From positions 1 through 64,000 of the forward strand of contig CAINNJ010000010.1 in assembly GCA_903851195.1 (NCBI GenBank): 64,000 bases of DNA, read 5' to 3'. Each line of letters opens with the position of its first letter. Position 1 is the first letter of the stretch. A model generated the notes under the pieces. It saw only the letters and a program-made list of their open reading frames with translations, did not search any database and was not told the DNA's origin. The stretch comes from an uncultured Acidobacteriia bacterium. Its GTDB lineage: Bacteria; Acidobacteriota; Terriglobia; Bryobacterales; Bryobacteraceae. The position numbers and the translations under genes were made by a program. Positions 10,505 through 35,927 of this stretch are shown one piece after another.

Positions 10505-11953
10505 ATGCAAAGGATATTTTCATTACTTTTGTTCGTTAGTCCGGCCGTACTCTGTGCTTCCGATGTCAAGTCATTCGGCGCCGTCGGTAACGGTCTCACC
10601 GATGACACGCAATCCATCCAAAATGCCATCAACGCGTGTCCGGCGAACGGGACCGTGACCTTCACGCAGGGTACTTACCTTGTGAGTGGCCTGTTTCCCC
10701 GTTCTCAGTGTACTTATTCTGGAAGTGGTAATGCTATGATCCGACTTTCTGCTCCGAACCGATTCATCTTCGATATCAGCGAAAGAGAGAATCTTCATTT
10801 CACGGGCCTGGCTCTGGATGCGAACCAAAAAGGAGGGGTTATCTATGCCGGGGGAAACGGCCCGGTCCGGCACCTCCGGATCGACAACTGCGATTTTCGT
10901 AACGTGGTGAGCGCGGCGATCTTCCCCGCGAACCTTGCGCTCGCTTCTCTCTGGGGCACCGTCGACGGCGTGATTCAGAACAACCGCTTCAGTAACATTG
11001 CCGGCGGAATCTGGCTGACCACCGTTCAGAATGTCAGCATCCTGAATAACTCATTCACCGACGTTACGCAGAACGACGCCATCTATGTCGCCCCCAACCC
11101 GGTGCCTTTTCAAAGCGGAGACAATCTTCGGATCGCGGGCAACTCAGGCTCTCACATCACCAACATGGGAATCGAGATCTTCCGCCCGGATCCGAGCAAC
11201 GGCTCCGTGCTGACGGCGCCGATTATCGAGAACAACAGCTTCTCCGACTGGATCGGAACCGGGCCGAACGGAATGGGGCTGTCGATTACCCACGGTGACG
11301 GCGCGATCATCAGAAATAACCGGCTCAACAACGCGAACGGGCCGACACAACTGATCGGAATCGAGTTGATTGTGACTAACGCGCAGGTTACCGGGAACGT
11401 GATCTCGGGGGGATTTTACTATGGCATCGTCGTGCAGGGCAAACCCGGCGACACCATCACCGGCAACACGATCACGGGGGCGGGGGACACCGGAATCCTT
11501 CTGGCCTGCAGTAACGAACTGGGCCGTTGCAACAGTAACAGCACGACGATCTCCGGAAATGCCATACACAATCCGCGTCTGTTTGGGATTAAGCTCGACA
11601 ACGAGTGGTCCCACAGCCAGATTACGAGAAACACGATTGTCCGCACTGCCGGGCTTTATCCGCAGGACAACACGACGCTGTTCAGTGGAATCAGCCAGTC
11701 TCCGGCGGCGGGGCCGGGTGTGATCGATTTCAACACGATTGTGCAGGATGCGATTTCACCCACGCCAGGCTTCTGGTTTTGCGGCATTCGTATCAATTCA
11801 CAAATGCCCGGCTCGACCGTCAGGAACAATATCGTGCGATCCCTTAGTTCTTCCCCGTTTGGCTCCGGCCTGATCGACAATACAGGGAACGCAACGCAGG
11901 GCTGGATTATCAGCGGGAACACGTATCTGAACGTGTATCACAACATTAATTAG
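10505..11953 (+). CDS. Secreted right-handed beta-helix protein (pectate-lyase-3-like), paralogue 1
   Basis: 482 residues with a signal peptide (MQRIFSLLLFVSPAVLCA). Mature residues begin DVKSFGAVGNGLTDDTQSIQNAINAC, the classic opening of pectate-lyase-3/endosialidase-like beta-helix proteins. Many short parallel-beta-helix repeats follow (IENNSFSDW, IIRNNRLNN, ITGNTITGAG). The family holds polysaccharide lyases, hydrolases and epimerases that act on extracellular glycans. A clear paralogue (22684-24114) sits inside the polysaccharide cluster and shares the block MGIEIFRPDP...GMGLSITHGDGA, so this copy probably also acts on the exopolysaccharide. It converges on the exporter gene of the RiPP cluster with only 23 bp between. 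Catalytic activity cannot be read from sequence alone. Confidence 0.8.
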   Translation: MQRIFSLLLFVSPAVLCASDVKSFGAVGNGLTDDTQSIQNAINACPANGTVTFTQGTYLVSGLFPRSQCTYSGSGNAMIRLSAPNRFIFDISERENLHFTGLALDANQKGGVIYAGGNGPVRHLRIDNCDFRNVVSAAIFPANLALASLWGTVDGVIQNNRFSNIAGGIWLTTVQNVSILNNSFTDVTQNDAIYVAPNPVPFQSGDNLRIAGNSGSHITNMGIEIFRPDPSNGSVLTAPIIENNSFSDWIGTGPNGMGLSITHGDGAIIRNNRLNNANGPTQLIGIELIVTNAQVTGNVISGGFYYGIVVQGKPGDTITGNTITGAGDTGILLACSNELGRCNSNSTTISGNAIHNPRLFGIKLDNEWSHSQITRNTIVRTAGLYPQDNTTLFSGISQSPAAGPGVIDFNTIVQDAISPTPGFWFCGIRINSQMPGSTVRNNIVRSLSSSPFGSGLIDNTGNATQGWIISGNTYLNVYHNIN

Positions 11954-11976: not shown

Positions 11977-13836
11977 TTAGACACCCGCGAAGCTGTTCGC
12001 TTCGGGCGTCAGTTCCATCTGTTGTCGCCAGGACTCCGCGTAGAGTCCGCCCGCGGCGAGCAGTTCCGGGTGGGAACCGGACTGAATGACTTGTCCCTCG
12101 TGCATCACATGGATCAGATCGGCCCGCATGGCGATTGTGAAACGATGAGTAATCACGACGGCGGTTCGGCCGGAAGCGAGACTCCGGAGCCGATCGAACC
12201 ATTCGGCTTCCGCCCAGGAATCCATAAAGCTGGTCGGTTCATCCAGCAGAATCACGGGAGAGCGCCGGAGAAAGGCACGCGCCATCGCGACGCGCTGCCA
12301 TTCCCCGGCGCTTAGCTCGTTTCCCATGGCGAACGATTTTCCCAGCGGCGTCTCATAGCCTTGCGGCAAGCGGCAGATGACGTCGTGGGCGCCGGCGTTC
12401 AGCGCCGCCTCGCGCACGGCGGCAGGGTCGGAATCCCGGGACAGGTCGCCCACGGCGATGTTCTCCGCGGCGGATGCGTCGTAAGTGACGGGCATCTGAA
12501 ACAGAACCGAGATCATGCGGCGAAGGTCTTCCAGCGCGATATCCCGAAGGTCAACTCCGTCAACGGTGACTTTTCCGTCCAGGGGGTCGTAAAACCGGGC
12601 GAGCAGCTTCAGCAGCGTACTCTTTCCGGCTCCGTTCGGTCCCACGATCGCGACCACACTGTTAGCCGGAATCGTGAGATCGAAGCGGCGCAGGGCGAGA
12701 CGTTCGCTGCCTGGATAACCAAAGGTCACGTTTTCAAACCGGATGGCGTCACTCAGTCTTCGAGGCGCGGACAGGGAAGGCTGCCGGTCGACGACAGCGG
12801 GACGGAGATCGAGAAATTCGAACAGACTGGAGAGGAAGAGGCTGTTGTTGTAAACCTGTCCCAGATTTCCCGTCATGCCGCGTACCAGACTCTGACTGCC
12901 CATCAGAGCCTGATAAAAGAGAATCACATCGCCGAGAGTGCCGTTGCCGCGCAGCGTCCGCCAACTCATCCACGCCAGAGCGAGGGCGGCGGCGCCAAGA
13001 CTGAGCAGAGCCGCGCCGATTCTGGCGAGGTTTTGTTTGCGAACCAGGGCTAACTTCTGCGCGCGGAGTTTGTGCCGCAGCGACTGCCAGGATCGCTGAA
13101 AGCGCGGCCCCAAACCGAGCAGCCGCAGTTCGGCCGCCGCGGCGGGACTGGTCAGTTTCTGGTCGTAATACTGGATCCAGCGGCGTTGTTCCGTCGTGCT
13201 GTGCCACCAGTCGTGATTCAGCCAGTTATAGCGAACCACGACAACGATGGCGGGAAGCATGCCCAGGATCATGGACGCCACCAAGGAAATGCCGTAAGTA
13301 AGAATCAGGCCGGATAAGCCGAGAAGCGTAACCGAACTCTGCAGCAGACCTCCCAGGTTGTCCAGTAACGCGGCGGGTCTGCTCGCGGCTTCATCGCGCG
13401 CGCGATAAAGGCAGTCGAAATATTCCGGAGACTCGTAGAAAGCGAGATCCACGCGAATGGACTGCTTATGAACCAGGGTGGCGATGTGGTCCTGGATCAT
13501 CTCCGACTGCGCGGTCCGGACCCAATCCAGCAAGCCCTGGAGAAGTTCCGTCGCGATGGCCACAATGGCGATGAGCACTCCCGCAATAACTGCCGGGCGC
13601 GTGTTCTGCCAGGTCACAGCGGTGTGAGTCGCGGCGACGAGACTATCGACCAGGCGCTTCGTTAAAGCGACCGTCGCCAGCGGCGCCGTGCCCAGCAGCA
13701 GAAGCAGGGAAACCCACGCAATAGTCCAGCCTTTCGCGGACTGCCAGATGAGGTTCCAGACACGCGGGAAACTGGAAACCTGCGCGGCGGCGGCCCGGAG
13801 GCGGCTCTTAAGTGCGCCAACCACAGTGTTGTTCAA
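11977..13836 (-). CDS. ABC exporter (fused membrane and ATPase domains), probable RiPP exporter
   Basis: 619 residues: an N-terminal six-helix exporter domain (about 35-320) and a C-terminal ATPase. Walker A is GPNGAGKSTLLKLL, signature LSAGEWQRVAMARAF, Walker B VILLDEPTSFMD, H-loop VITHRFT. No C39 peptidase domain is present, as expected for lasso-peptide exporters, where a separate protease removes the leader. It is the last gene of the precursor-bearing cluster and its frame begins 29 bp inside the kinase gene. The first codon is TTG, with GTG four codons on as an alternative. Export of the matured peptide is inferred from position. Confidence 0.85.
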   Translation of the reverse strand: MNNTVVGALKSRLRAAAAQVSSFPRVWNLIWQSAKGWTIAWVSLLLLLGTAPLATVALTKRLVDSLVAATHTAVTWQNTRPAVIAGVLIAIVAIATELLQGLLDWVRTAQSEMIQDHIATLVHKQSIRVDLAFYESPEYFDCLYRARDEAASRPAALLDNLGGLLQSSVTLLGLSGLILTYGISLVASMILGMLPAIVVVVRYNWLNHDWWHSTTEQRRWIQYYDQKLTSPAAAAELRLLGLGPRFQRSWQSLRHKLRAQKLALVRKQNLARIGAALLSLGAAALALAWMSWRTLRGNGTLGDVILFYQALMGSQSLVRGMTGNLGQVYNNSLFLSSLFEFLDLRPAVVDRQPSLSAPRRLSDAIRFENVTFGYPGSERLALRRFDLTIPANSVVAIVGPNGAGKSTLLKLLARFYDPLDGKVTVDGVDLRDIALEDLRRMISVLFQMPVTYDASAAENIAVGDLSRDSDPAAVREAALNAGAHDVICRLPQGYETPLGKSFAMGNELSAGEWQRVAMARAFLRRSPVILLDEPTSFMDSWAEAEWFDRLRSLASGRTAVVITHRFTIAMRADLIHVMHEGQVIQSGSHPELLAAGGLYAESWRQQMELTPEANSFAGV

Positions 13837-14758
13837 TTCGCGAGGCCAGTTCGGGAATTTCGGGCAAAGTGTCGAAGGTGCGGATTCGATAGACCGGAAC
13901 GCGGGAGGCCAGAGCGGCGCAGGCTCTCAGATGGTCGGCGCCGCCGGCCAGTTTCCAGCGTGTGGGCACGGAGTTCCGGACGAGTTCGATAATCGCCTCA
14001 TGACTGGGCACCCGCTTAATCCCGTCAACCGGTTCGCGCGTCAGGACGTAAATACGGTCCAGAGGCAGCGGCCTTTCCGGAAAGAGAGCAGAAACATCGC
14101 GGACACTCTTGGGCTGTGAGGCGTGCATGCGCGTGAGCGAGTCCCGCGCAAAGCCAAGAGATTCGGCGATGGACGGGAATACTTTAACGAAAGGAAATGC
14201 CGGAGTCACTTCGGGCTTCTCGGGCTTCAGGTTAATAGCCGCATTGTCGTCCGTGACGACCGCGTGCCCTCTGGCATGCAGCGCCGCCGCCGTGGACGAT
14301 TTGCCCGCACCAACGTGTCCCAAAAAGGCGGCGGCGAAATTCCCCAAGTGAACGACACTGGAATGCAGGACGAAGAAGCCGCGCTGATAAAGCAGCGTCG
14401 CGATCATCATGCCTTCGATGTACATGCGCAGCAGGCTGTTTTCAACTCCGGGCTCAGGTGAGACGGCAATGTGGCGGCCTTCGCTGACCCGAAAGCCCCC
14501 CACGCCGGAGAACCAGAAGCGAGCCTCATGGCAATCCATCCACCACGACGACGGCAGATGGCGAACCTCGTCGATCCAGGCTTCGCCTGCTGAGCAGCTT
14601 ATATGGACATCGACCGGCGCTGAAGGGTTCCGCGCGGCGGCAAACTCGGGCAGCGGAATCTCGGATAAGATGACGAGGCCGAAGGCGAAACTGAGTTGTT
14701 CAGCGTCCGGCCGCGGCGCCGGAAAAGACAAGTTGAGTTCGGGATGGGTTGCTTCCAT
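13808..14758 (-). CDS. HPr-kinase-like kinase of the lasso cluster
   Basis: 316 residues from ATG 14758; the longer upstream frame crosses a strong hairpin and is not used. The C-terminal half contains a P-loop, FLGHVGAGKSSTAAALHARGHAVVTDDNAAI, as in HPr kinase/phosphorylase relatives. The N-terminal half (residues about 20-150) is the accessory domain typical of stand-alone homologues. Relatives in paeninodin-type lasso clusters phosphorylate the precursor at its C-terminal serine. Both precursors here end in ISG, so the target serine would be penultimate rather than last. The gene follows the precursor genes behind a terminator-like hairpin and overlaps the exporter gene. Confidence 0.78.
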   Translation of the reverse strand: MEATHPELNLSFPAPRPDAEQLSFAFGLVILSEIPLPEFAAARNPSAPVDVHISCSAGEAWIDEVRHLPSSWWMDCHEARFWFSGVGGFRVSEGRHIAVSPEPGVENSLLRMYIEGMMIATLLYQRGFFVLHSSVVHLGNFAAAFLGHVGAGKSSTAAALHARGHAVVTDDNAAINLKPEKPEVTPAFPFVKVFPSIAESLGFARDSLTRMHASQPKSVRDVSALFPERPLPLDRIYVLTREPVDGIKRVPSHEAIIELVRNSVPTRWKLAGGADHLRACAALASRVPVYRIRTFDTLPEIPELASRIEQHCGWRT

Positions 14759-14776
14759 GGATTCGGGTGTCGGGCG

Positions 14777-14814
14777 AAAAAACGGGGGGCGGAGCGACGC
14801 AGCGTGCCCCCCGT
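14777..14814 (-). terminator. Rho-independent terminator after the precursor genes
   Basis: On the minus strand ACGGGGGGC (14814-14806) pairs with GCCCCCCGT (14790-14782), nine base pairs with a 15-base loop, followed by a run of T. It lies 22 bp after the second precursor stop and 18 bp before the kinase start. Partial termination here would give more precursor message than kinase and exporter message, a common arrangement in RiPP operons. Confidence 0.75.
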
Positions 14815-14836
14815 GCGCTAGCAAGCGACCAGCTGA

Positions 14837-14968
14837 TTAACCACTGATGGGTACACCGTTGAACGTAAAGCCATCGCTGATACCCGAGTGCTTGTCTTTC
14901 TGCAACGTGAGTTCCGTGACGTCCCCGTACACGGTCAGACTCGGAGTCTCCCAGACTTGATTTTTCAT
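14837..14968 (-). CDS. Lasso-type precursor peptide 2 (43 residues)
   Basis: ATG 14968 with AAGGAG about ten bases upstream. The leader carries WETPSLTVYGDVTELTL, matching the P-x-L-x-x-Y-G...L-T recognition pattern of lasso precursors read by PqqD-like domains. The C-terminal 18 residues, KHSGISDGFTFNGVPISG, equal those of precursor 1 except Ser for Asn at the third position. The only acidic residue conserved between the two after the leader is Asp32. A ring of seven, eight or nine residues closing on it would start at Lys26, Asp25 or Lys24, none a usual first residue. The final chemistry is therefore open. The tail contains two Phe that could act as plugs. Confidence 0.82.
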   Translation of the reverse strand: MKNQVWETPSLTVYGDVTELTLQKDKHSGISDGFTFNGVPISG

Positions 14969-15010
14969 CCTATATGCTCCTTTCTCCAGCGGAAACCCAC
15001 TGGTTATTTA

Positions 15011-15030
15011 CGGACGCGCGAACGCGTCCG
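15011..15030 (-). repeat. Hairpin with UUCG tetraloop between the two precursor genes
   Basis: CGGACGCG and CGCGTCCG form a perfect 8-bp stem closed by TTCG on the transcribed (minus) strand. It lies between the stop of precursor 1 and the ribosome site of precursor 2 and lacks a T-run. UUCG-capped stems are very stable and often protect upstream message ends. A smaller stem (CCGGT/ACCGG, 15063-15076) lies immediately after the precursor 1 stop. Confidence 0.6.
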
Positions 15031-15077
15031 CTCGATAACGAGCCGCGGCAGATTCGACGAACCCGGTGAGAACCGGA

Positions 15078-15215
15078 TTAGCCGCTGATCGGCACGCCAT
15101 TGAATGTGAAACCGTCACTGATGCCGTTGTGTTTGTTCTTCGCGAGCGTCAGTTCGGTGGCATCCCCGTAAACCGTGAGGGACGGTTCGATCCAGACCTT
15201 TTGTTCGGTTGCCAT
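15078..15215 (-). CDS. Lasso-type precursor peptide 1 (45 residues)
   Basis: ATG 15215 with GGAGAAG upstream, 42 bp after the cyclase stop codon. The leader segment VWIEPSLTVYGDATELTL matches the lasso leader pattern. The C-terminal part is KHNGISDGFTFNGVPISG. It was missed by length-based gene finding but is supported by its near-duplicate 110 bp away: leader motif and core are conserved while the residues between (LAKN here, LQKD in the other) vary. Asp34 is the only conserved ring-closing candidate. A residue at the minus-two position equivalent to the usual leader Thr would put the cut after TL, giving an unusually large ring. Transcribed with the cyclase, protease and recognition element. 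Confidence 0.82.
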   Translation of the reverse strand: MATEQKVWIEPSLTVYGDATELTLAKNKHNGISDGFTFNGVPISG

Positions 15216-15257
15216 GTTCTTCTCCTTTCCCGATTGACTTGAAGCCACCCGGATTTC

Positions 15258-17186
15258 TCAGACGCGCGTAGCGCTTCTGAAACTCGTTTGTTCCAGCCAC
15301 AGGGCCAGATTGGCCGCCGTAAAGAGCTGGATGGAATTTTTGCTGCCCGCGGCCATGGGGTCGGCGCGGTACTCATCGAGAGCCCGACGCAGGGATCCCT
15401 GGTCGAGGTAACTTCGCGTGGCCTGCGTATCGCCCGCGGCTACGCGTTCGAGTAAGGCACCGTCCAGGTCCAGCAGGCGCCTCTGAAAATTCGGGGACAA
15501 GTTGCCCTTACTGCCGCGCCACTGAATTTCCGGAGGCAGGACGCCCTCCATGGCGCGCCGGAAAATGAGCCTGTTCCAGCCCGCTCCCATCTTCTGTTCG
15601 GCCGGCAGAGCCAGGCAGAACTCGATCAGTCTGCGATCAAAGAACGGATACCGGGCTTCCACCCCGAACGCCGCGGTGGCTTTGTCGGCCATTTCCAGCG
15701 CGTGGGGATAAAGAGAGAAATTCAGAGCTTTGTGATGATAGCCACGTGCCGTGTGCCGGGTGCGCGCCGGAGAAAGCCGCCGGGCGCGCCGGCGAAGGTC
15801 CAGCCGTTCCGTTAAAGCGGGATGAACCAGAGTGCTGTTGGCACGCACCTCGCGGAACCGGCCACGGAGCAATCGATACGCCTGAAACATCCAGAGCGGC
15901 GCCATTTCCTTCACGCAATAGTTCCAGAGAATCCTGCGGGGTTTTGCGCCGCCGAACAGATTCGCCGCCAGGAGAGAGGTTTCCGCGCTAAGCGTTTTCC
16001 AGCGGAAAGAACGGGCCAGTTCTTCCAGATACTCGAAACCATGGGACACCGTGGTGTCGCCATCCAGACCATCGAGAAAAACACGAACGCCGTTTTCTCT
16101 GGCCGCGCCATACATCGCCCAATGAAGGTACAGATTCGGCGCGAAGTTGGCTTCATCCAGATGGTGGTGCACGCGCGCTACATCGCGCAGCGGGCTTAGT
16201 TCGTCGCCCCGGATGTAATGCGGAATGAAATGGCCGGTCTGCAGCACGCGCGCAATATAGGGGCGCTCATCGATGACTTTCAGGTCACGCTCAGGCAGAC
16301 CCGGGAAGACGATGGAGAACGTGTGCACGGGTTCTGCGCTCAGGTTGCGGGCGGTGCACGCGATAGCGGAGGAGTCGAGTCCGCCGCTCAGGGCCGAGCC
16401 AAGCGTCGGGCCCGTGCCGGAGGACCAGGCGCGAACGCGGCAGCGAACCGATTCATCGAAAAGTTCACGAAACGCTTCGGTGTACTCGGCATCGTTGCCG
16501 AGGCGAAGTTCACGCTCGGGATCCAGTTTCCAGTACGTGCGCGTGGCGAAGGAGTCCGGCGTAACGGTCAGTAAAGTCGCCGGAGGAAGCCGGTAAATGT
16601 CGCGATAAAAAGTCATCGCGCGATCTTCGTACAGATTGATCAGGTAATCGCCGACGCGGGCCTCATTGATGTCGGCGGGCACTTCCGCCAGCGTGGTCAG
16701 CGCCTTGATCTCCGAGGCGAAGACAAAGAGTTCCGGTGTGACGTGGTAATAGAAGGAGCGAAGACCGGCGCTGTCCCGGGCGCAGAAAAGTTTCCGCTCG
16801 TTCACGTCCCAGATAACGAAACTATAGTCGCCGATGAGACGCGCGGGGCACTCTTCCCCCCATCGCTTATAAGCCTCGACAATATACTCGCTGTCTGTCC
16901 GGTTCCGGTCGTCGCTCAGGCCCAGGGCTTCCCGCAGTTCCGCGCGGTTATCGATTCGCGCGTCGGCGGCGATGACGAAAGGCGTCCCGGGGTATGGCCT
17001 GGGCAGGACTTCGTTCACCGCCTCGGGGGTGGTCCACAAAAGGCAGTTTCCGAGCCCGGCTGAGCCACCGTGCCAGATGGCTTGTTTGTCGGGGCCACGG
17101 TGTGCAATAGCCGCCAGCATGCGCTGAAGAGCCTCGGGAGACACAGGTCCGCCGTCCCGCCGGAAGATTCCCGCAATCCCGCTCAT
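15258..17186 (-). CDS. Asparagine-synthetase-like lasso cyclase
   Basis: 642 residues from ATG 17186, whose ATGA overlaps the protease stop. The N-terminus reads MSGIAGIFRRDGG; true class-II glutaminases need Cys as residue 2, so glutamine hydrolysis is not expected, as in lasso cyclases. The synthetase half has the PP-loop SALSGGLDSSAIAC for adenylation. In lasso pathways this enzyme adenylates an Asp or Glu side chain and joins it to the freed N-terminus. The open frame extends 28 codons further upstream into the protease gene; those residues lack family similarity. Its position directly upstream of the twin precursors supports the role. Confidence 0.88.
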   Translation of the reverse strand: MSGIAGIFRRDGGPVSPEALQRMLAAIAHRGPDKQAIWHGGSAGLGNCLLWTTPEAVNEVLPRPYPGTPFVIAADARIDNRAELREALGLSDDRNRTDSEYIVEAYKRWGEECPARLIGDYSFVIWDVNERKLFCARDSAGLRSFYYHVTPELFVFASEIKALTTLAEVPADINEARVGDYLINLYEDRAMTFYRDIYRLPPATLLTVTPDSFATRTYWKLDPERELRLGNDAEYTEAFRELFDESVRCRVRAWSSGTGPTLGSALSGGLDSSAIACTARNLSAEPVHTFSIVFPGLPERDLKVIDERPYIARVLQTGHFIPHYIRGDELSPLRDVARVHHHLDEANFAPNLYLHWAMYGAARENGVRVFLDGLDGDTTVSHGFEYLEELARSFRWKTLSAETSLLAANLFGGAKPRRILWNYCVKEMAPLWMFQAYRLLRGRFREVRANSTLVHPALTERLDLRRRARRLSPARTRHTARGYHHKALNFSLYPHALEMADKATAAFGVEARYPFFDRRLIEFCLALPAEQKMGAGWNRLIFRRAMEGVLPPEIQWRGSKGNLSPNFQRRLLDLDGALLERVAAGDTQATRSYLDQGSLRRALDEYRADPMAAGSKNSIQLFTAANLALWLEQTSFRSATRV

Positions 17187-17626
17187 GCGAAAAACCGTCC
17201 CAGTGAAGGCATGCGGGAATACTGTTTCCCTTCGGGAGAAGGATTCCCGATCGTGATGTTGCCCGGGCATTCCAGCCAGGCATGCGCCTCGAACTTACCT
17301 TCGGTTTTCCGTACGCCGATACGCAACTCCGCCGGATACCCGACGCGAGCCATAAGAAAGCGGCCCGCGATCGCTTCCGACAGGCATGTGGAAGAATTGC
17401 CGCAAAGCCGGGCTGCCTGCGCGATCCGTTTCGCCGCGCGAGGCAGAGCGGGCGCCGTTTGGCCGCGCCTGGGCCAGCGGAGGTTGATGGTGTCGGTGGC
17501 TCGAACCACCTTCTGGAAAGGCCAGAAGACAAGCGCGATCCGAATTCCCGCCATACTGGTCAGGGCCAGGGCAAAGAAGCCGCGCTCCATCGAACTCAGG
17601 CGCAGGAAGTTACTGAGAGACTTCAT
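17183..17626 (-). CDS. Lasso leader protease (B2, transglutaminase-like / McjB C-terminal)
   Basis: 147 residues from ATG 17626. The conserved core CLSEAIAGRFLMARVGYPAELRIGVRK followed by AHAWLEC supplies the catalytic Cys and His of the McjB-C family; the Asp lies downstream, as expected. The N-terminus (MERGFFALALTSMAGIRIALVFWPF) is the hydrophobic B2 start. Its job is to cut the leader from the precursor once the separate recognition protein delivers it. It overlaps the recognition gene by 17 bp and the cyclase gene by four. The split B1/B2 layout is like that of actinobacterial and firmicute lasso clusters rather than the fused proteobacterial form. Confidence 0.87.
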   Translation of the reverse strand: MKSLSNFLRLSSMERGFFALALTSMAGIRIALVFWPFQKVVRATDTINLRWPRRGQTAPALPRAAKRIAQAARLCGNSSTCLSEAIAGRFLMARVGYPAELRIGVRKTEGKFEAHAWLECPGNITIGNPSPEGKQYSRMPSLGRFFA

Positions 17627-17918
17627 GGTTGTGAATAGCGACCAGACCCTGTGACGCCAGTTTGCCAACCAGCGCTTTCACTTCCGACTCGCAGCGGGCG
17701 GGAGTCACGTTGTAGAGCGAGAGCAGATGGTCCCGGATCTCTTCGAACGAGCGCTCGTCGCGGACGAAATTCCAGATCTCCGCGCCGACCGGATTGAGTC
17801 CGAAGTAGGTGCCGGTGTCGAGGTGAAGCAGCACGATTTCACCATCGATCTCGCAACCGACGACTTTGTCGCTGGCAAGGATCCGGGTGGTCATGACGAT
17901 GTCTTCGGCGGTAGTCAT
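17610..17918 (-). CDS. PqqD-like RiPP recognition element (lasso B1)
   Basis: 102 residues with the winged-helix PqqD pattern: VVGCEIDGEIVLLHLDTGTYFGLNPVGAEIWNFV, then EEIRDHLLSLYNVTPARCESEVKALVGKLASQGLV. Such proteins bind the leader peptide and present it to the protease and cyclase. The leader motif of both precursors (P-S-L-x-V-Y-G) is the kind of sequence these domains grip. The gene overlaps the nucleotidyltransferase gene by four bases upstream and the protease gene downstream, so stoichiometric co-translation is likely. Confidence 0.9.
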   Translation of the reverse strand: MTTAEDIVMTTRILASDKVVGCEIDGEIVLLHLDTGTYFGLNPVGAEIWNFVRDERSFEEIRDHLLSLYNVTPARCESEVKALVGKLASQGLVAIHNHEVSQ

Positions 17919-19120
17919 ATGGAGTCTTGTCTTTGTAAGAGCCGTAGCCCGTGGTTGCCAAGCAGGCGCAACGGGCGCAGAAGGTAATAAAGAAACGAGA
18001 GCGAATCCGGCAGGCGGAACAGTTCCCAGTCCCTCGAATGCGGATGCGGAATACGAAACCAGTAAAGCAGCAGAATGCGGGCACGATCCGTGAGCCGCTC
18101 TCTGGTGCGAATATAAAACGCCTGCCGCCGGATTTCCGGGACCTGTTGCGATTCGGCCGATGACAAGAGCCGCTCCTTCACCTGGGACGCCAGAGACGCG
18201 GCGATGGGGTCTGCCGACAGTTGGCTCGCGACGGTGGCGGGGAAAGACACGGCACAGATTTGCTTCGCGAGAAGAAGTCCCAAACGGAGAGCGCGAAGAG
18301 CGCCGCTTTCCACTGCCTGCCGGAACAGAAGCGGCCAGTCAAGAGGTTGCGTGCGCATGAGCTGCGCGAGGCTGCAGATCCATTCCAGGCGATCCCAACC
18401 GTGTTTCGCGCCATGCAGGCACAGATAAATGCACAGGTCTTCGTTCGAAAGCGCCCGGATGCTGCGCCCCTGCAGAGACACCACGCGCAGCCGCTCCCAA
18501 ACAGCGGCGGCGGTCAGAGGAAAGGCCTGGTAACGCGAACCGAAGTTCCAGTGAATTTCAACAATGAATTCGCCGCTCGGACTATGGAACTGCAGGGCGT
18601 GTTCAGAGCGCAGATACTCCGCTTCGCGCACCGCGGTGAGTTCGAATTCTTTAAGGTATCCACGCGACAGCATCACCTCGATCGCGGCCGATATCTGCCC
18701 GGGGCGAACCAGAATGTCGAGATCGCGGAACTGGCGCTGCGCGACGTTCCCGAAGAGCTGACTGGCAAGGGCGGGACCTTTAAAGGGCACCGCTTCAATG
18801 CCCGCTTCTTCCAATGCCTGCAGGATGTTCAGCAGTTCGCCGGTCATCCGGAGGTTCTGCGTTGCGCTGGACAGACAGGCGCGTCGCAGATGCCGGCGCA
18901 CCGCCGCTGGCACCGCATCGGCCGGACACAGTTCATCCAGCCGGGCGCGGAGCAACGGGATGACTCCGTGGCTTTCGGCATTGGTCAGAATCCCGTTCCA
19001 GTCGGGGCTCCGAGCGACCAGCATGCAGAGTTCCGCACGCGCGCTCTCGTCATTACCAGCCGCGGCACAGGCCAGAAGAATCTTCCGTTCCGGAGTCCAG
19101 GTTGTAGCTGAGGAATTCAT
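17915..19120 (-). CDS. PF14907-type nucleotidyltransferase of the lasso cluster
   Basis: 401 residues from ATG 19120, 11 bp after the upstream glycosyltransferase stop. The diagnostic stretch is IEAVPFKGPALASQLFGNVAQRQFRDLDILV, with the DLD metal-binding pair, as in the uncharacterised nucleotidyltransferase family often found in lasso clusters with an HPr-like kinase. A second conserved part is FIVEIHWNFGSRYQAFPL. Its exact reaction is not established; modification of the peptide, or of a phosphate placed by the kinase, is a reasonable guess. A longer frame upstream overlaps the glycosyltransferase and is not used. Confidence 0.78.
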   Translation of the reverse strand: MNSSATTWTPERKILLACAAAGNDESARAELCMLVARSPDWNGILTNAESHGVIPLLRARLDELCPADAVPAAVRRHLRRACLSSATQNLRMTGELLNILQALEEAGIEAVPFKGPALASQLFGNVAQRQFRDLDILVRPGQISAAIEVMLSRGYLKEFELTAVREAEYLRSEHALQFHSPSGEFIVEIHWNFGSRYQAFPLTAAAVWERLRVVSLQGRSIRALSNEDLCIYLCLHGAKHGWDRLEWICSLAQLMRTQPLDWPLLFRQAVESGALRALRLGLLLAKQICAVSFPATVASQLSADPIAASLASQVKERLLSSAESQQVPEIRRQAFYIRTRERLTDRARILLLYWFRIPHPHSRDWELFRLPDSLSFLYYLLRPLRLLGNHGLRLLQRQDSI

Positions 19121-19131
19121 GTCAGGTGTTC

Positions 19132-20115
19132 TCAGCTGAATTCCAGGAGCCGCCGGCCCCGCGCGAAGCGCGCCCACAGAGTCCCGAAGAAATGAAAGAT
19201 GTTGACACGGTAAGGCGTTCTGAATGAGCAGTGAGCAAGCACAGCGAGCAGCTTCGGCCATTGCAGCACCGGCGCATCCGAAATCATCAGCCGCAGTGAG
19301 TTGAGGACGACGCCCGATTTTGCGCGATCAAAATCGACCGGACGGGTGAGGGGCAGCGTCACTCTCCGGCAGGCGCGCTGGAAGGTCTCCATGTAGTCTT
19401 CGATCGTTCGCCCGGTTCCCATGGACATATGGAAGCGGCCGGCGTGTTCCCGCCACTGAAGATATGGGCGCGACGCGACGAGTACCGTACCTTTGCTCTG
19501 CTGAACGAAATCAAGGGTAGCTTCCACGTCGGTTCGTGTCGGTTCCGCGGAGTTGAAATAGGGGCGATGGCCGGCACTCACGCGATAAATATTTGCCTGC
19601 AGTGGCCCGAGCGGAAACAATCCGCTTTCGAGGAGTGTGCTCAGAAACTCAGCGGGGCTGCATACGGCCGTGTTGGTGGTATAGAAGCGGCGGCTCTCGC
19701 GTCTGATCTCGCCATCCTCCCCGGAGATCACGAAAGGAGCGAAAGCGATATCCGTATGGTAAGTCTGCATAAGCTGCAGCAGTTCCCCAATGCCCGAATC
19801 CGGCAGCCAGCAATCGCCCGCGAAAAGAAACGTCACATAGCGGAAGCCGAGTCCCGTGGCGATCTCCATGGCCCGGTTCCAGTTGTTCACGCGACCAAGA
19901 TTGGAGGAATTGCGGAACACTCTTACAGGCGCGCCATTCAGATCGGCGGCGGGCAGGTTCTCGACCGCTCCGTCCGTGGAACAGTTGTCGACAACGATCA
20001 GTTCATAGCGATCCGCGGGAAGTCCGGCGGCAGCGCACGAATGAAGCGATGTGAGCAACTTCGGCCCGCCATTGAAAACCGGCATCAGCACCGCAAGTTT
20101 GTCCGGCGCCGGCAT
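19132..20115 (-). CDS. Glycosyltransferase family 2, paralogue A
   Basis: 327 residues. GT-A fold start KLAVLMPVFNGGPKLLTSLHSCAAAGLPADRYELIVVDNCSTDG, then NLGRVNNWNRAMEIA and the metal-binding region FLFAGDCWLPD. It is a paralogue of the enzyme at 24102-25142, sharing the unusual NLGRV.NWNRA and FLF.GD.WLPD segments. Cytoplasmic, it would add a sugar to the lipid-linked repeat unit. It is the last glycan gene before the RiPP genes and lies 11 bp from the nucleotidyltransferase start, so it could belong to either pathway. Exopolysaccharide assembly is more likely. Confidence 0.85.
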   Translation of the reverse strand: MPAPDKLAVLMPVFNGGPKLLTSLHSCAAAGLPADRYELIVVDNCSTDGAVENLPAADLNGAPVRVFRNSSNLGRVNNWNRAMEIATGLGFRYVTFLFAGDCWLPDSGIGELLQLMQTYHTDIAFAPFVISGEDGEIRRESRRFYTTNTAVCSPAEFLSTLLESGLFPLGPLQANIYRVSAGHRPYFNSAEPTRTDVEATLDFVQQSKGTVLVASRPYLQWREHAGRFHMSMGTGRTIEDYMETFQRACRRVTLPLTRPVDFDRAKSGVVLNSLRLMISDAPVLQWPKLLAVLAHCSFRTPYRVNIFHFFGTLWARFARGRRLLEFS

Positions 20116-21323
20116 CAGTGCATGCTCCCCCGGCTATTTGCGCGGGCAACCGCTCGCTGATAAATAGCCATCAAAGCCTTGTAGTTGCCCTCCGCCGAAT
20201 GATCGGCGAGAAATGCGGCTCTGGCATTGTCCCCCATCGTCCCGATATCGTGCCCGACATCAGACTCGGGCCCGAGCATACGTTCCACCGTTCGCGCCAG
20301 AGCTCGATGATCTCCCGCGGGGAAATGAAGCCCGGTCACGCCGTGGCGGATGAGCGTGGCGAGGCTGCCCAGGTTGCTGGCGATCACGGGAAGTCCCGTG
20401 GCGTAGGCCTCCACAATGGTGAGCGGCAGAAACTCATACCACACAGAAGGCACAATCAAAACCCCGGCTTTCTTCATCAGATCCACGATGCCGGCGTGCG
20501 GCACCTCGCCGAGGAAGGTTACGTTCTGCATGGTTTGCGTCTGTTCACGTATAAAGTCCGACAAAGGGCCCCCGCCGGCGATCGTGAGAGGGATTGGTTG
20601 TTTCAGTTCCCGCCACGCTGCAAGCAGAACATGCAATCCCTTGTCTTCCGTCAGACGCCCGACATACAGAGCCGTCTTGTTGTGCCTCTTGTCACGCTTC
20701 CCCTTGCCGGGATCCGTGTCGAGAAAATTCGTTTTAATCGCGATCCGCTCGCGGGGGAAGCCGCCCTCAACAAATTTGTCGCGCGAGAATTCCGAAAGCG
20801 CAATATAAGTGTCTACGGCGCGGGACCAGGTCCGGATTGCGCGGTGGAAGGTCAGCATTCCGGCTACGCCGCTCGATTGCAGCCGGCTTTTTCGATAGCA
20901 GCTGTGAACCACGCCGGGCCACGGTACGGCACGATTCATGCAGGACTCGCAGACCCGCCCCTCCCGGTAAAAAAGAGCGCCCGGGCACATGAGCCGGTAA
21001 TTATGGAGCGACTGAATCACCGGTACGTTCTCGCTCCGCGCTGCATAGTAAGCCGACGGAGAAATCAGCGGGAACGTATTGTGAAAGTGCGCCACGTCGA
21101 TCTTTTCCCGCCGGATTCTCTGTTTGAGATCCCGGTATGTGTCGGGGTTCCACAGGGTGTTGCGCGCAACCCGCAGACGACTCATGTCCGCGATATCGGA
21201 GTTCTGCCGCGTCCAGCGCACCACCGAGTGTCCGTAACGCTCAAGCAGACGCGACTCTGCTGCGAAGACCTGATCCTCGCCGCCCGCCTGCTGGTAATAG
21301 TTATGCGCCAGTAAGATTCGCAT
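20115..21323 (-). CDS. Glycosyltransferase family 4
   Basis: 402 residues from ATG 21323 (MRILLAHNYYQQAGGEDQVF), overlapping the ligase gene end by 23 bp. GT-B fold: N-terminal domain with VIQSLHNYRLMCPGALFYREGRVCESC, and a C-terminal nucleotide-sugar domain with ALYVGRLTEDKGLHVLLAAW and the E-x7-E motif in EFLPLTIVEAYATGLPVIASNLGSL. It is a retaining glycosyltransferase for the polysaccharide repeat. The longer frame upstream lies within the ligase gene and was rejected as a start. Confidence 0.88.
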   Translation of the reverse strand: MRILLAHNYYQQAGGEDQVFAAESRLLERYGHSVVRWTRQNSDIADMSRLRVARNTLWNPDTYRDLKQRIRREKIDVAHFHNTFPLISPSAYYAARSENVPVIQSLHNYRLMCPGALFYREGRVCESCMNRAVPWPGVVHSCYRKSRLQSSGVAGMLTFHRAIRTWSRAVDTYIALSEFSRDKFVEGGFPRERIAIKTNFLDTDPGKGKRDKRHNKTALYVGRLTEDKGLHVLLAAWRELKQPIPLTIAGGGPLSDFIREQTQTMQNVTFLGEVPHAGIVDLMKKAGVLIVPSVWYEFLPLTIVEAYATGLPVIASNLGSLATLIRHGVTGLHFPAGDHRALARTVERMLGPESDVGHDIGTMGDNARAAFLADHSAEGNYKALMAIYQRAVARANSRGSMH

Positions 21324-22677
21324 AAGGGCTGCGAAAGCGGAATGCAGGCGCCGCCAGGGCGCCGACGATGACAAAGAACGGAATGGCGCCATAGGGTGTT
21401 TCGAAAGCATCGCCGAAGAGCGACCAGACGATTACAGAAGTCCACATCACAACTCCGAAAGGATTCCCGGACACGCGCCAGGCCCGGATCAGGAGCCGGA
21501 GAACAAAGATCTGGAGCAGAGAGAAGATGCCGACCAGCAGCCAGCCTCCATATCCGAGCGCAAAAAAGAACATATTATGCGGCGTCCTGATAAAGGTTCG
21601 GCCCTTCAGGTAATCCACCAGATTGACAAGCGGGTACCCATAACCTTCGCCGAACACCGCGGTCACCGCGTCCTTATGGTTGTCTTCCCAGATCGCTTTC
21701 CACCAGTTGGTGCGCCACTCGAATGTGCTTGCGTTGTTGGCCGCGTGCGGTGTGAGTTCCGCCGCAAGATCTTTGTTGATGGGCGCTATCGCACGCCCCA
21801 CGATATCGCGCGTGGAGATCGCTCCCCCGCGCGATGACGCCCCCGGAAGTCGGATATCCGCGATTAATCCAACCATCAGAAACAGGCCGGTTATCGCCAC
21901 GGCGCCCATGAGCTTATCGAAACGCCGGGTGAGGAAAGAGTAGGTCAGTGTGCCAACCACAAAGCCCAGCCATTCCGCCCGGACCTGCATGCCGAGCAGA
22001 ACGCCCATGTTGATCAGGATCAGGAACCACGTGCGCTTCAGATCCAGTTCCAGACACAGGATTCCAAGCAAAGCCACCATGGATCCCCATGGCTGGCCGA
22101 ACAGAGGAACACCCACCCCCTGACCTCCCGGAATTTCAAAACCGGCATTACTCAGAAGTCCGATATAGAGAAGTCCGTAGATCCCGCTCACCCACGCGTT
22201 GGCGATGATCAGTTTTTCCACGAACCGGGAATCACGCTCGCCCATCCAGATTCCGAGGAGAAAGTACAAAGGGTAATAGTTGAAGACGAAGCTTTGAATA
22301 CCGTTCAGGACGGAATCGCCGTTGTATGCGCCGCGAAAGATCTCTCCGATGCCATAAAGAAGCAGGACGGCCAGCGCCCACGAGTAGTCGCTCAAAAGCT
22401 CCGAATGCGCGAGGGCACGGCGAACCTTGTCGACGCTTCTGCGCGGGTGTCCCAGGAGAAACGTGAACAGCACGATTTCACCGATAAAGAGCTTCAACTG
22501 CGGAATGCCGAAATAGGCAAAACTTCGCCCCATGGCGAAATAGCCCACCACCATGAAAATGGTGACTCTCTGCCACCAGTCGACGGGGGCACGGCGCGCC
22601 GCCGACAAGGGCCGCGGCGCATCGAGCCACGAGTTGTCGTAAACCGGGGAATCGTAAGTAGAGGGCAGTGACGACAC
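21301..22677 (-). CDS. O-antigen ligase / polymerase-like membrane protein
   Basis: 458 residues with about ten to twelve membrane helices and one long periplasmic loop (residues about 270-365, containing SSRGGAISTRDIVGR and NNASTFEWRTNWWKAIWEDN), then RTPHNMFFFALGYGG. The RTPHN-type motif after the large loop is typical of the O-antigen ligase/Wzy superfamily. It may polymerise repeat units or attach the finished chain. With a Wzm/Wzt-type exporter in the same operon a ligase role is possible; with Wza and a Wzc-type kinase present a polymerase role is equally possible. Confidence 0.78.
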   Translation of the reverse strand: MSSLPSTYDSPVYDNSWLDAPRPLSAARRAPVDWWQRVTIFMVVGYFAMGRSFAYFGIPQLKLFIGEIVLFTFLLGHPRRSVDKVRRALAHSELLSDYSWALAVLLLYGIGEIFRGAYNGDSVLNGIQSFVFNYYPLYFLLGIWMGERDSRFVEKLIIANAWVSGIYGLLYIGLLSNAGFEIPGGQGVGVPLFGQPWGSMVALLGILCLELDLKRTWFLILINMGVLLGMQVRAEWLGFVVGTLTYSFLTRRFDKLMGAVAITGLFLMVGLIADIRLPGASSRGGAISTRDIVGRAIAPINKDLAAELTPHAANNASTFEWRTNWWKAIWEDNHKDAVTAVFGEGYGYPLVNLVDYLKGRTFIRTPHNMFFFALGYGGWLLVGIFSLLQIFVLRLLIRAWRVSGNPFGVVMWTSVIVWSLFGDAFETPYGAIPFFVIVGALAAPAFRFRSPYANLTGA

Positions 22678-32162: not shown

Positions 32163-33641
32163 CTAGTAAGCTCCTCGGCCGGAGAAGACAGCGAGCGGCG
32201 TTTCCAGCAGAATTCGGATATCCAGTCCCAGAGACCAGTTCCGGATGTAGTCGAGATCGAACTCCACCATCTGCTCAAAGCTGAGATCGCTGCGACCGCG
32301 AATCTGCCACATGCCGGTTATGCCGGGGCGCACCTGAACGCGCTGTTCCGCCCACGCGGAGTGTTCGCGGCTTAGGCCATCGGGATCCAGGTCTTCAGCC
32401 GGAAGCGGGCGGGGACCAACCAGGCTCATCTCTCCCAGCAGCACGTTCATCAGCTGCGGCAGTTCGTCGAGGCTGTAGCGTCGCATAAAGCGCCCGAGAG
32501 GCGTTACTCGCGGGTCGTTGCGCATCTTAAAGATGTGTCCGCCACGCTCGTTGGATTTCACCAGTTCTTCCCGGCACGGTCCGTTCACGTACATGGAACG
32601 GAATTTCCAGAACATGAAATGACGTCCGCCCTTGCCGACGCGGGGCGAAAGGTACAACACGGGCCCGGGAGAGGTACAGCGGATCAGGACTGCCAGCGCG
32701 ATTAACAAGGGCGACAGCGCGAGCAGCAGAAACGCCGATGCCATGACATCGACACACCGCTTCATCACTTCCTGCCGGTGAGTGAAGTGAACGGGTTCCG
32801 CGTCGAGGAGATCGAAGCCGTACTCATTACTGAACTCGAAACGCACGTTGTTCCAGCGGGGCGGCGAGATGGAGCGGCTGAAGGTGACGCCCATGCGATT
32901 GGAAATGGCGCCGCACAGTTCGAAATCGTGAGAACTTACAGTGCTCATGCAGATTAGCTGATCGAGCCGTTCACGATTGATTACCTCCGCGAGATGATGC
33001 ACGCTGCCAAGAACCGGAAGCATCGCGCCACTCACGGCGCTCTTCAGGGCGGCGCCCGTCGAGGGCACAATCACGCCGGCAACCTTCAGCGTGCCCGTGG
33101 CGGCGTGCTCAATGTTTTTCGCGAACTCCGTGACGTCTTCTCCGGATCCCAGCACCGCTACCCGTTTCGGCTCCAGCCACCTTCGCTGAACGCCGCAACT
33201 GATGAACATGGCCAGATAGAAAGCGAGCGCCAGCAGAATCAGGCTCACGGGGCCGAACAGAAACAGCAGCGAACGGGAAATATCGGTGGCGACACCCCGT
33301 GTAAAGAAGGTCACCACGATGGCGAGACCGCAGGCTATGATGTCGGCCTCCAGAGCCCGCCGTATGGCGTGTGCCGCGGACCAGGTCTTCTTCTTCCTGT
33401 AGAGACCAGTCCACCAGGCGGCGGCGGTCCAGAGCGAAAGAATCACCAGAGGATGCGGAACCAGGGTCCGCGCTTCCGCGGATGAGATGTGGATCGGCAT
33501 CCACGGATTGATGTAGACACGGATAGCGATGGCTCCGTACCAGGCAAGCAGCAGAGCCATGACGTCCAGAGCGAAATGAATGGAGGCAAAAATATGCCAC
33601 CGGGTAATACGATTCGACGAAAGAAGTGTTCTTGAAAGCAT
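32163..33641 (-). CDS. Undecaprenyl-phosphate sugar phosphotransferase (WbaP/WcaJ type)
   Basis: 492 residues from ATG 33641. N-terminal membrane helices (about 15-140), a central nucleotide-binding-like domain (VAVLGSGEDVTEFAKNI...) and the catalytic C-terminus: KRCVDVMASAFLLLALSPL, then FWKFRSMYVNG, YSLDELPQLMNVLLGEMSLVGPRP. It starts polysaccharide synthesis by moving a sugar-1-phosphate to the lipid carrier at the inner membrane. The longer frame upstream runs into the kinase gene and was discarded. Confidence 0.94.
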   Translation of the reverse strand: MLSRTLLSSNRITRWHIFASIHFALDVMALLLAWYGAIAIRVYINPWMPIHISSAEARTLVPHPLVILSLWTAAAWWTGLYRKKKTWSAAHAIRRALEADIIACGLAIVVTFFTRGVATDISRSLLFLFGPVSLILLALAFYLAMFISCGVQRRWLEPKRVAVLGSGEDVTEFAKNIEHAATGTLKVAGVIVPSTGAALKSAVSGAMLPVLGSVHHLAEVINRERLDQLICMSTVSSHDFELCGAISNRMGVTFSRSISPPRWNNVRFEFSNEYGFDLLDAEPVHFTHRQEVMKRCVDVMASAFLLLALSPLLIALAVLIRCTSPGPVLYLSPRVGKGGRHFMFWKFRSMYVNGPCREELVKSNERGGHIFKMRNDPRVTPLGRFMRRYSLDELPQLMNVLLGEMSLVGPRPLPAEDLDPDGLSREHSAWAEQRVQVRPGITGMWQIRGRSDLSFEQMVEFDLDYIRNWSLGLDIRILLETPLAVFSGRGAY

Positions 33642-33666
33642 GGCTCGGAATCCGTTCAAACGGCAG

Positions 33667-35904: not shown

Positions 35905-35927
35905 GTCAAATCTCAAGTGCCGCCGGG

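Follow-up and report, generated by a model that had tools for sequence, protein, structure and literature searches.

The window analysed here is a stretch of 64,000 nucleotides from an uncultured Acidobacteriia bacterium of the family Bryobacteraceae (GenBank assembly GCA_903851195.1, contig CAINNJ010000010.1, positions 1 to 64,000). Its positions 11977-19120 carry a lasso-peptide-type biosynthetic cluster of six larger minus-strand genes (N, B1, B2, C, K and D) and two precursor genes (A1 and A2), whose predicted cores place their acidic residue in an unusual register. An initial annotation had counted seven larger genes besides the two precursors; its reading-frame positions and strand are right, but the larger genes number six.

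17915-19120, minus strand: N, PF14907 nucleotidyltransferase-family protein, PsmN/BsfN-like (Pfam PF14907, 210.5 bits, cut-off 31.2)
17610-17918, minus strand: B1, PqqD-type recognition element of ribosomally synthesized and post-translationally modified peptides (Pfam PF05402, 65.4 bits, cut-off 23.4)
17183-17626, minus strand: B2, transglutaminase-like leader peptidase (NCBIfam NF033537, 84.8 bits, cut-off 33)
15258-17186, minus strand: C, asparagine-synthetase-like lasso macrolactam cyclase (NCBIfam NF033535, 689 bits, cut-off 525)
15078-15215, minus strand: A1 precursor, leader W..P.L...G....LT, core AKNKHNGISDGFTFNGVPISG
15114-15134, minus strand: KHNGISD unit of A1 (K-x-x-G-x-x-D), core Lys4-Asp10
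14837-14968, minus strand: A2 precursor, leader W..P.L...G....LT, core QKDKHSGISDGFTFNGVPISG
14873-14893, minus strand: KHSGISD unit of A2 (K-x-x-G-x-x-D), core Lys4-Asp10
13808-14758 (from ATG), minus strand: K, HPrK-like kinase, placed by the motif H...GHVGAGKSS...DD
11977-13836, minus strand: D, ATP-binding cassette (ABC) exporter with permease and ATPase fused, TTG start, overlapping K (PF00005, 106.6 bits)

The same genes make up lasso clusters of the B1-B2-C-K-N-D kind, such as pseudomycoidin and bsf; the paeninodin cluster has these gene kinds except N. The cluster almost certainly encodes a lasso-type pathway. The roles that the initial annotation had given to B1, B2 and C were borne out: their best matches are lasso families, and none of the three was closer to an unrelated family. 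For B1 the best NCBIfam model, NF033536, reached 59.1 bits, under its cut-off of 80 and besides the PqqD score listed above, and the best match with a solved structure was TbiB1 (PDB 5v1u, E 6.6e-15). An asparagine synthetase of ordinary metabolism was rejected for C, since NF033535 scored 689 bits against 258.3 bits for TIGR01536 (cut-off 267.1). The cyclase starts with MSGI, thus carrying Ser at the position of the glutaminase Cys, and keeps the PP-loop SGGLDSS; B2 keeps its Cys and HAW, and Cys and His are present in 90 of the 91 rows of the B2 alignment. These residues had all been read correctly in the initial annotation, as had the PF14907 protein, the kinase and the exporter. The N call comes from the PF14907 score of the window's protein, whose motif KG...DLDI is intact in the window and its relatives. 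Model scores for K lie below cut-off (PF07475, 21.9 vs 33.3 bits; TIGR04352, E 5.5e-5), and the kinase motif H-GxxGxGKSS-DD occurs in all nine clusters compared, that of the window among them, and in 38 of the 55 K-like hits in total. D matched best to the NCBIfam model for MsbA (264.6 bits), under the equivalog cut-off of that model.

The precursors divide into leader MATEQKVWIEPSLTVYGDATELTL and core AKNKHNGISDGFTFNGVPISG for A1, and leader MKNQVWETPSLTVYGDVTELTL and core QKDKHSGISDGFTFNGVPISG for A2. This predicted boundary was set by the published marks Y/W(-17), P(-14), L(-12) and T(-2) (PMC10368454), the bsf leader itself having Y(-17), P(-14) and L(-12); Trp in place of Tyr is our own extension. 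Both leaders have W(-17) and Thr at -2. The lasso leader model NF033521 is passed by A2 (19.5 vs 19 bits) and failed by A1. Between the two cores there are 14.75 synonymous changes per 13.0 sites, which is saturated, and 5.25 non-synonymous changes per 50.0 sites; judged from this pattern, the cores are under purifying selection. Compared with the related genome G785, A2 is 89% identical (38 aa), above C (73%), K (65%), B2 (63%) and B1 (52%). The initial annotation had named relatives lacking a precursor at this position as evidence against its reading, but the five closest relatives (G785, G556, G447, G811 and G813) all keep an orthologous precursor at the same place. Chance or antisense reading frames were rejected because of these orthologues and the combination of saturated synonymous with few non-synonymous changes. 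A profile of four precursors found no third precursor in the host genome, the one match besides A1 and A2 being at chance level (E 0.38). A plasmid search with a precursor as query returned nothing but Rhizobium mannosidase-type noise, and one scan across genome contigs gave a single locus, in the Bryobacterales MAG RYN_16, with the same match as that of G556.

Two GC hairpins follow the precursor genes:

14765-14822, minus strand: GC hairpin between A2 and K, with six U after it (-23 kcal/mol, z -1.23 against shuffles, an energy that is not exceptional)
14995-15070, minus strand: GC hairpin after A1 (z -1.95 against shuffles, likewise not exceptional)

A terminator scan gave 0 sites. It is possible that the hairpins act as attenuators that raise precursor over enzyme transcripts.

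Register of the core acid and the Lys-to-Asp unit

In the usual lasso ring the N-terminal amine is joined to an acid at residue 7-9, and this rule serves to find and name lasso peptides. Counted from Thr(-2), there is no acid at core position 7, 8 or 9 in A1 or A2; A1 has an acid at position 10 only, A2 at positions 3 and 10. Of the lasso pathway and product proposed in the initial annotation, the gene set is supported and an ordinary lasso product is not. The broken acid rule had been overlooked there, as had the exopolysaccharide setting described below. Within the same bacterial family, eight precursors with this leader type were compared; the window and G785 contribute two apiece, and G556, G447, G813 and G811 a single one, making six genomes. 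Seven of the eight, in three genera, have Asp10 and the remaining one, in G556, has Asp9. Cyclase matches at E 1e-80 or better occur in 7 of 237 genomes of the family, the host's own included. The seventh genome, G486 (L130), has two short precursors with the cores VDNALCVSGCID and FDTGLGPSGGIPD, which fit neither the classical acid rule nor the Lys motif described below, and its cyclase falls in the sister group.

The wider survey sought B2 in 396 Acidobacteriota genomes, with a match in 90 and a score over cut-off in 81. The stretches examined were the best 80 of 114 listed B2 places, then closer relatives, and rows were added by two order-wide searches, with matches in 12 genomes out of 119 and in 9 out of 162. 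Among 21 new loci (L150-L170), 11 were added, L150, L151, L153, L157, L162, L163, L165 and L170 repeated a known precursor, and L164 and L169 had none. Precursors were located by pattern, so that leaders unlike the pattern are missed. Beside a long cyclase, 54 such precursors were found in 41 loci; 36 of them have an acid at 7-9, in 7 it first comes at 10, in 3 at 11 and in 7 at 12-16, and one has none.

In a tree of 57 cyclases, made by a short search with no bootstrap, the window's cyclase belongs to a clade of 17 that spans three acidobacterial families (SH-aLRT 97). Left out of this tree were the 20 of 72 cyclases without a pattern-found precursor and seven rows that were extra or very long (L046_6284, L103_16869, L086_2, L051_15036, L096_12319, L087, L088); each locus is represented by its first precursor, and that of L140 was added by hand, likewise those of L079, L074, L106, L120 and L121. 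A smaller tree recovers the W clade as 15 rows (SH-aLRT 95), and an earlier 72-row tree placed the W-leader rows, together with Y rows at an open fork, in a supported group of 13. An acid at 7-9 is present in 2 of 19 precursors of the window's clade, in 1 of 7 of a second W-leader clade and in 28 of 33 elsewhere. Leader type and odd register co-occur (21 of 24 W rows vs 5 of 33 Y rows). Trp(-17) as the cause of the odd register was nevertheless not kept: the tree shows no more than two changes of leader type, and the independent-pairs test has just 2 pairs, with a median p of 0.5. Trp is present in a paeninodin-family Priestia precursor as well.

The feature that the window's clade does share is a fixed distance between a Lys and the Asp. 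The motif K-x-x-G-x-x-D-[DGSA]-[FIA] is found in all 19 clade precursors and in its full form in none of 40 other rows, K..G..D alone occurring outside the clade in three (L135, L062, L168). The Lys stands at core position 3, 4, 5, 7, 8 or 10 and the Asp at 9, 10, 11, 13, 14 or 16, always six apart; insertions and deletions between Thr and Lys thus shift the Asp freely while the Lys-Asp distance stays constant. In classical lasso peptides, the constraint is from the N-terminus to the acid. The motif Lys is invariant, with no Arg in the 19 precursors. The residue preceding it is Asp (5), Asn (4), Gly (4), Pro (3), Leu (2) or Met (1), core residue 1 is Gln in seven of the 19, and all 19 cores have a Ser within their last five residues. 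The idea of a Lys at minus 6 from the Asp was fixed before five new distinct clade cores came in (L155, L156, L158, L159, L160), and all five have it; the new Y-leader neighbour L161, with Gly1 and Asp9, has no Lys there. When the residues before the Asp were shuffled, the chance of a Lys at this place was 0.07 to 0.23 for each of nine representatives, which are related, so that the product of these chances is not a probability. From these comparisons, the conserved unit runs from Lys to Asp and not from the N-terminus to Asp.

A similar Lys-Asp arrangement occurs outside the clade. The second W-leader cyclase clade (L069, L120, L121, L123, L166, L167, L168), with cores such as GGGGKLTAREGDPGE and AGQNKLTVVGDPAE, has no acid at 7-9 in six of its seven precursors, and there a Lys lies 6 or 7 residues before an Asp. 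On a haloarchaeal (Halopiger) plasmid (L174; NC_015658.1, 19612-29465) we found a cluster of B1, B2, C, K and N with a precursor, which has an ABC transporter (D) and a flippase as its neighbours at either end. Its Y-leader precursor has Gln1, Lys4 and Asp10 and coincides with no gene in the PLSDB table; its cyclase lies outside the W clade, at a place in the tree that has no support.

Ring partner and predicted product

According to a review, changing the ring size by one residue lowers lasso production significantly (PMC13352647); this speaks against ring sizes from 9 to 16 residues within one clade. Taken together with the constant Lys-Asp distance and the moving Asp, this means that the ring partner, the N-terminus (trimmed to or just before Lys) or the ring size must differ. 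We tentatively propose, at distinctly less than even confidence, that this lasso-cyclase lineage switched its nucleophile and joins the Lys side chain to the Asp of KxxGxxD. The N-terminus would then stay free as a tail of 2 to 9 residues, and the peptide, made within an exopolysaccharide locus, would carry phosphate and sugar. The preference for the Lys side chain as ring partner is modest. It is based on the invariance of the Lys, the Gln at residue 1 in seven of 19 precursors and the unrestricted residue before the Lys, and N-terminal Gln tends to close to pyroglutamate.

In the proposed pathway, B1 would hold the leader through the W, P, L and T marks and B2 would cut after Thr-Leu, giving an N-terminal Ala1 or Gln1. 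C would then activate Asp10 with ATP and close the macrolactam, the amine most likely being that of the Lys4 side chain rather than the N-terminus, which would give a Lys4-Asp10 link spanning seven residues. K would phosphorylate a Ser near the C-terminus, in PISG, N would lead to a sugar on the Ser phosphate, and D would export the product. Both cores end in Ser-Gly, so that the C-terminal residue itself is not Ser. By analogy, the Ser of PISG is likely the phosphosite: paeninodin-type kinases phosphorylate the C-terminal Ser, and PsmN is needed for the hexose on the phosphate (PMC9266682, PMC8498205). The whole chain, a phosphorylated and probably glycosylated macrolactam closed on a Lys side chain by a lasso-derived pathway, is in our view plausible, if somewhat short of an even chance.

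Several observations weigh against this proposal. We know of no lasso cyclase that uses a Lys side chain. No clade-specific change was found at an obvious catalytic residue of the cyclase; class differences were limited to A76, F145, R539 and I541, and R/K539 is variable in other rows as well. Sister Y-leader rows keep the canonical register (L161, G1-D9; L135, S1-D8; L134, K1-D8), so the ordinary ring is probably ancestral, and it is for these two reasons, the unchanged catalytic residues and the canonical sisters, that our preference stays modest. Since Thr(-2) is conserved, a cut there followed by N-terminal attack remains chemically simplest. The exact motif string was fitted after most sequences were known, and the sequences are related. 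As to the decorations, the review PMC9266682 leaves undecided whether PsmN acts on hexose transfer directly or through a host enzyme, BsfK phosphorylates core Ser3 instead of a C-terminal Ser (PMC10368454), and Ser9 and Thr13 are alternative phosphosites in A1 and A2.

It is also conceivable, though on balance unlikely, that a usual N-terminal ring forms after extra trimming or a displaced cut, either as K1-D7 with seven residues or as x1-K2...D8 with eight. The spacer from Thr-Leu to the Lys block would then belong to the leader and be removed by B2 or an aminopeptidase. A fixed KxxGxxD behind a free spacer also fits this explanation. In 16 of 19 precursors the x1 residue would be one of N, D, G and P, and metanodin has Asn at position 1 (PMC12670498). 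The arrangement S/T1-K2-x5-D8 follows Thr-x immediately in L135 and, outside the clade, in L053 and L061. The cut would, however, have to be displaced beyond Thr-x by at least one residue and by as many as 9, and no B2 known to us cuts in this way. There is no common cleavage motif ahead of the Lys, and L, M or P precedes it in six of 19, so that x1-K2...D8 fits many of them but hardly all. No peptidase model other than that of B2 was among the matches listed for the cluster proteins.

Ordinary cleavage at Thr(-2) could instead lead to a natural ten-residue lasso ring, with the amine of A1 or Q1 joined to Asp10. The predominance of Asp10 in the family, the acceptability of Ala as a first residue and the Q1...D10 arrangement of the haloarchaeal plasmid cluster outside the clade agree with such a ring, and a lasso analogue with a ten-residue ring came from in vitro fusilassin/fuscanodin work (PMC8498205). 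The same register would nevertheless produce rings of 9, 11, 13, 14 and 16 in sister clusters, G556, whose core is otherwise near-identical, would give a nine-residue ring, the invariant Lys would be left without a reason, and Gln would be residue 1 in seven of 19; we regard this ring as slightly less likely still than the trimmed one. Least probable by far is that no ring is made, the cyclase being inactive or acting elsewhere and the product being a linear phosphopeptide like the LPP family. LPP clusters do have the recognition element, K, N and D in common with the window, lack a cyclase and adjoin capsule loci (PMC13381572), but the cyclase of the window keeps its PP-loop and is closer to that of G785 than are B1, B2 and K, the Asp is invariant in all 19 precursors, and B2 is present. 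Neither a natural ten-residue lasso ring nor a Lys-side-chain lasso ring was found among the matches listed in the literature searched, which covered few subscription papers.

Known relatives and the exopolysaccharide setting

The Bacillota clusters for pseudomycoidin (psm) and paeninodin (pade) have the same B1, B2, C, HPrK-like K and ABC exporter, with N in psm. Unlike them, the window has Asp10 as its core acid, a core with KxxGxxD and a C-terminal Gly preceded by Ser, and the distance from the Trp mark to Thr is 15 residues compared with 13 in the paeninodin-family Priestia precursor. The bsf cluster of Bradymonas sediminis combines the same six gene kinds, and its B1 also speeds the kinase (PMC10368454); it differs in its predicted Gly1-Asp8 ring, Ile(-2) and phospho-Ser3, against W(-17), Thr(-2) and Asp10 here. 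Metanodin, a lasso peptide from a soil metagenome, demonstrates with its Asn1 that residue 1 can depart from Gly, Ala, Ser or Cys; its ring size is as expected, unlike the window, and the available part of PMC12670498 makes no mention of K or N genes. The LPP and paeninodin-like lasso clusters of Bacilli are K/N/D clusters in polysaccharide loci, as in the window (PMC13381572). A SipW-like peptidase is part of the LPP clusters, which lack a cyclase, whereas the window, from the phylum Acidobacteriota, has a cyclase and B2, and no signal-peptidase model (SipW-like) was among the matches listed for the six cluster genes. Should the Lys reading hold, the window and the graspetides would both have a lactam that links two side chains. 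Graspetides use ATP-grasp ligases, unlike the window, where the ring enzyme is asparagine-synthetase-like and no ATP-grasp ligase was matched among the ten proteins scanned with Pfam.

The genes around the cluster are mostly those of polysaccharide synthesis:

10505-11953, plus strand: right-handed beta-helix protein, homologue beside the cluster in G556, G447, G811 and G813
19132-20115, minus strand: GT2 glycosyltransferase (PF00535), directly upstream of N
20115-21410, minus strand: GT4 glycosyltransferase (Pfam), homologue near the cluster in G556, G447, G811 and G813 and on a second G785 contig
21301-22677, minus strand: O-antigen ligase/polymerase-like membrane protein, labelled from position and look with no Pfam hit, conserved beside the cluster
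32163-33719, minus strand: initiating sugar transferase (PF02397)
33667-35916, minus strand: Wzc-like protein (GNVR, weak Wzz)

The locus also holds an ABC ATPase, and its beta-helix proteins number two. Going by these neighbours, the lasso-type cluster lies inside an exopolysaccharide locus. Homologues of the GT4, ligase-like and beta-helix proteins are found near the cluster in all four relatives with long enough contigs (L128, L129, L140, L141); at 56.9 and 75.5 bits, the ligase-like matches of L140 and L141 are weak. The gene order is kept in G785 as far as N, where the contig ends, and B1 to D are on a separate contig. Above 100 bits, homologues of these three proteins were found in none of 83 other loci. 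The ligase-like protein is present at E 1e-20 in 12 of 237 family genomes, 5 with the cyclase and 7 without.

A different pair of window proteins has homologues above 100 bits in 12 of the 83 other acidobacterial lasso stretches (L053, L056, L061, L069, L086, L100, L103, L111, L117, L122, L123, L135), namely the Wzc-like protein (8 loci) or the initiating sugar transferase (6 loci). The polysaccharide linkage may thus extend beyond this bacterial family. The setting itself is not new: in 2026, capsule loci of Bacilli were described as harbouring paeninodin-like clusters (PMC13381572). The host genome (7.7 Mb, 67 contigs, 99.66% complete) contains two B2 genes, the second of them on another contig, in a further lasso-like locus (contig C1, 75843-78897; L010, L104). 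Besides this B2 (PF13471, 80.3 bits), the locus has B1-, K- and C-like hits and an ATP-grasp protein of a sugar-transfer-associated family (PF14397, 66.2 bits); no precursor was found there by pattern.

These comparisons describe a clade over three acidobacterial families that breaks the 7-9 acid rule yet keeps an internal Lys-Asp spacing. Compared with the characterised cases known to us, something must be different in cleavage, in ring size or in the ring partner. Genome-mining finders that demand an acid at 7-9 would miscall the cores of such clusters or drop them altogether. With the siting in a polysaccharide locus, as in Bacilli, a cell-surface role for the product becomes a testable idea.

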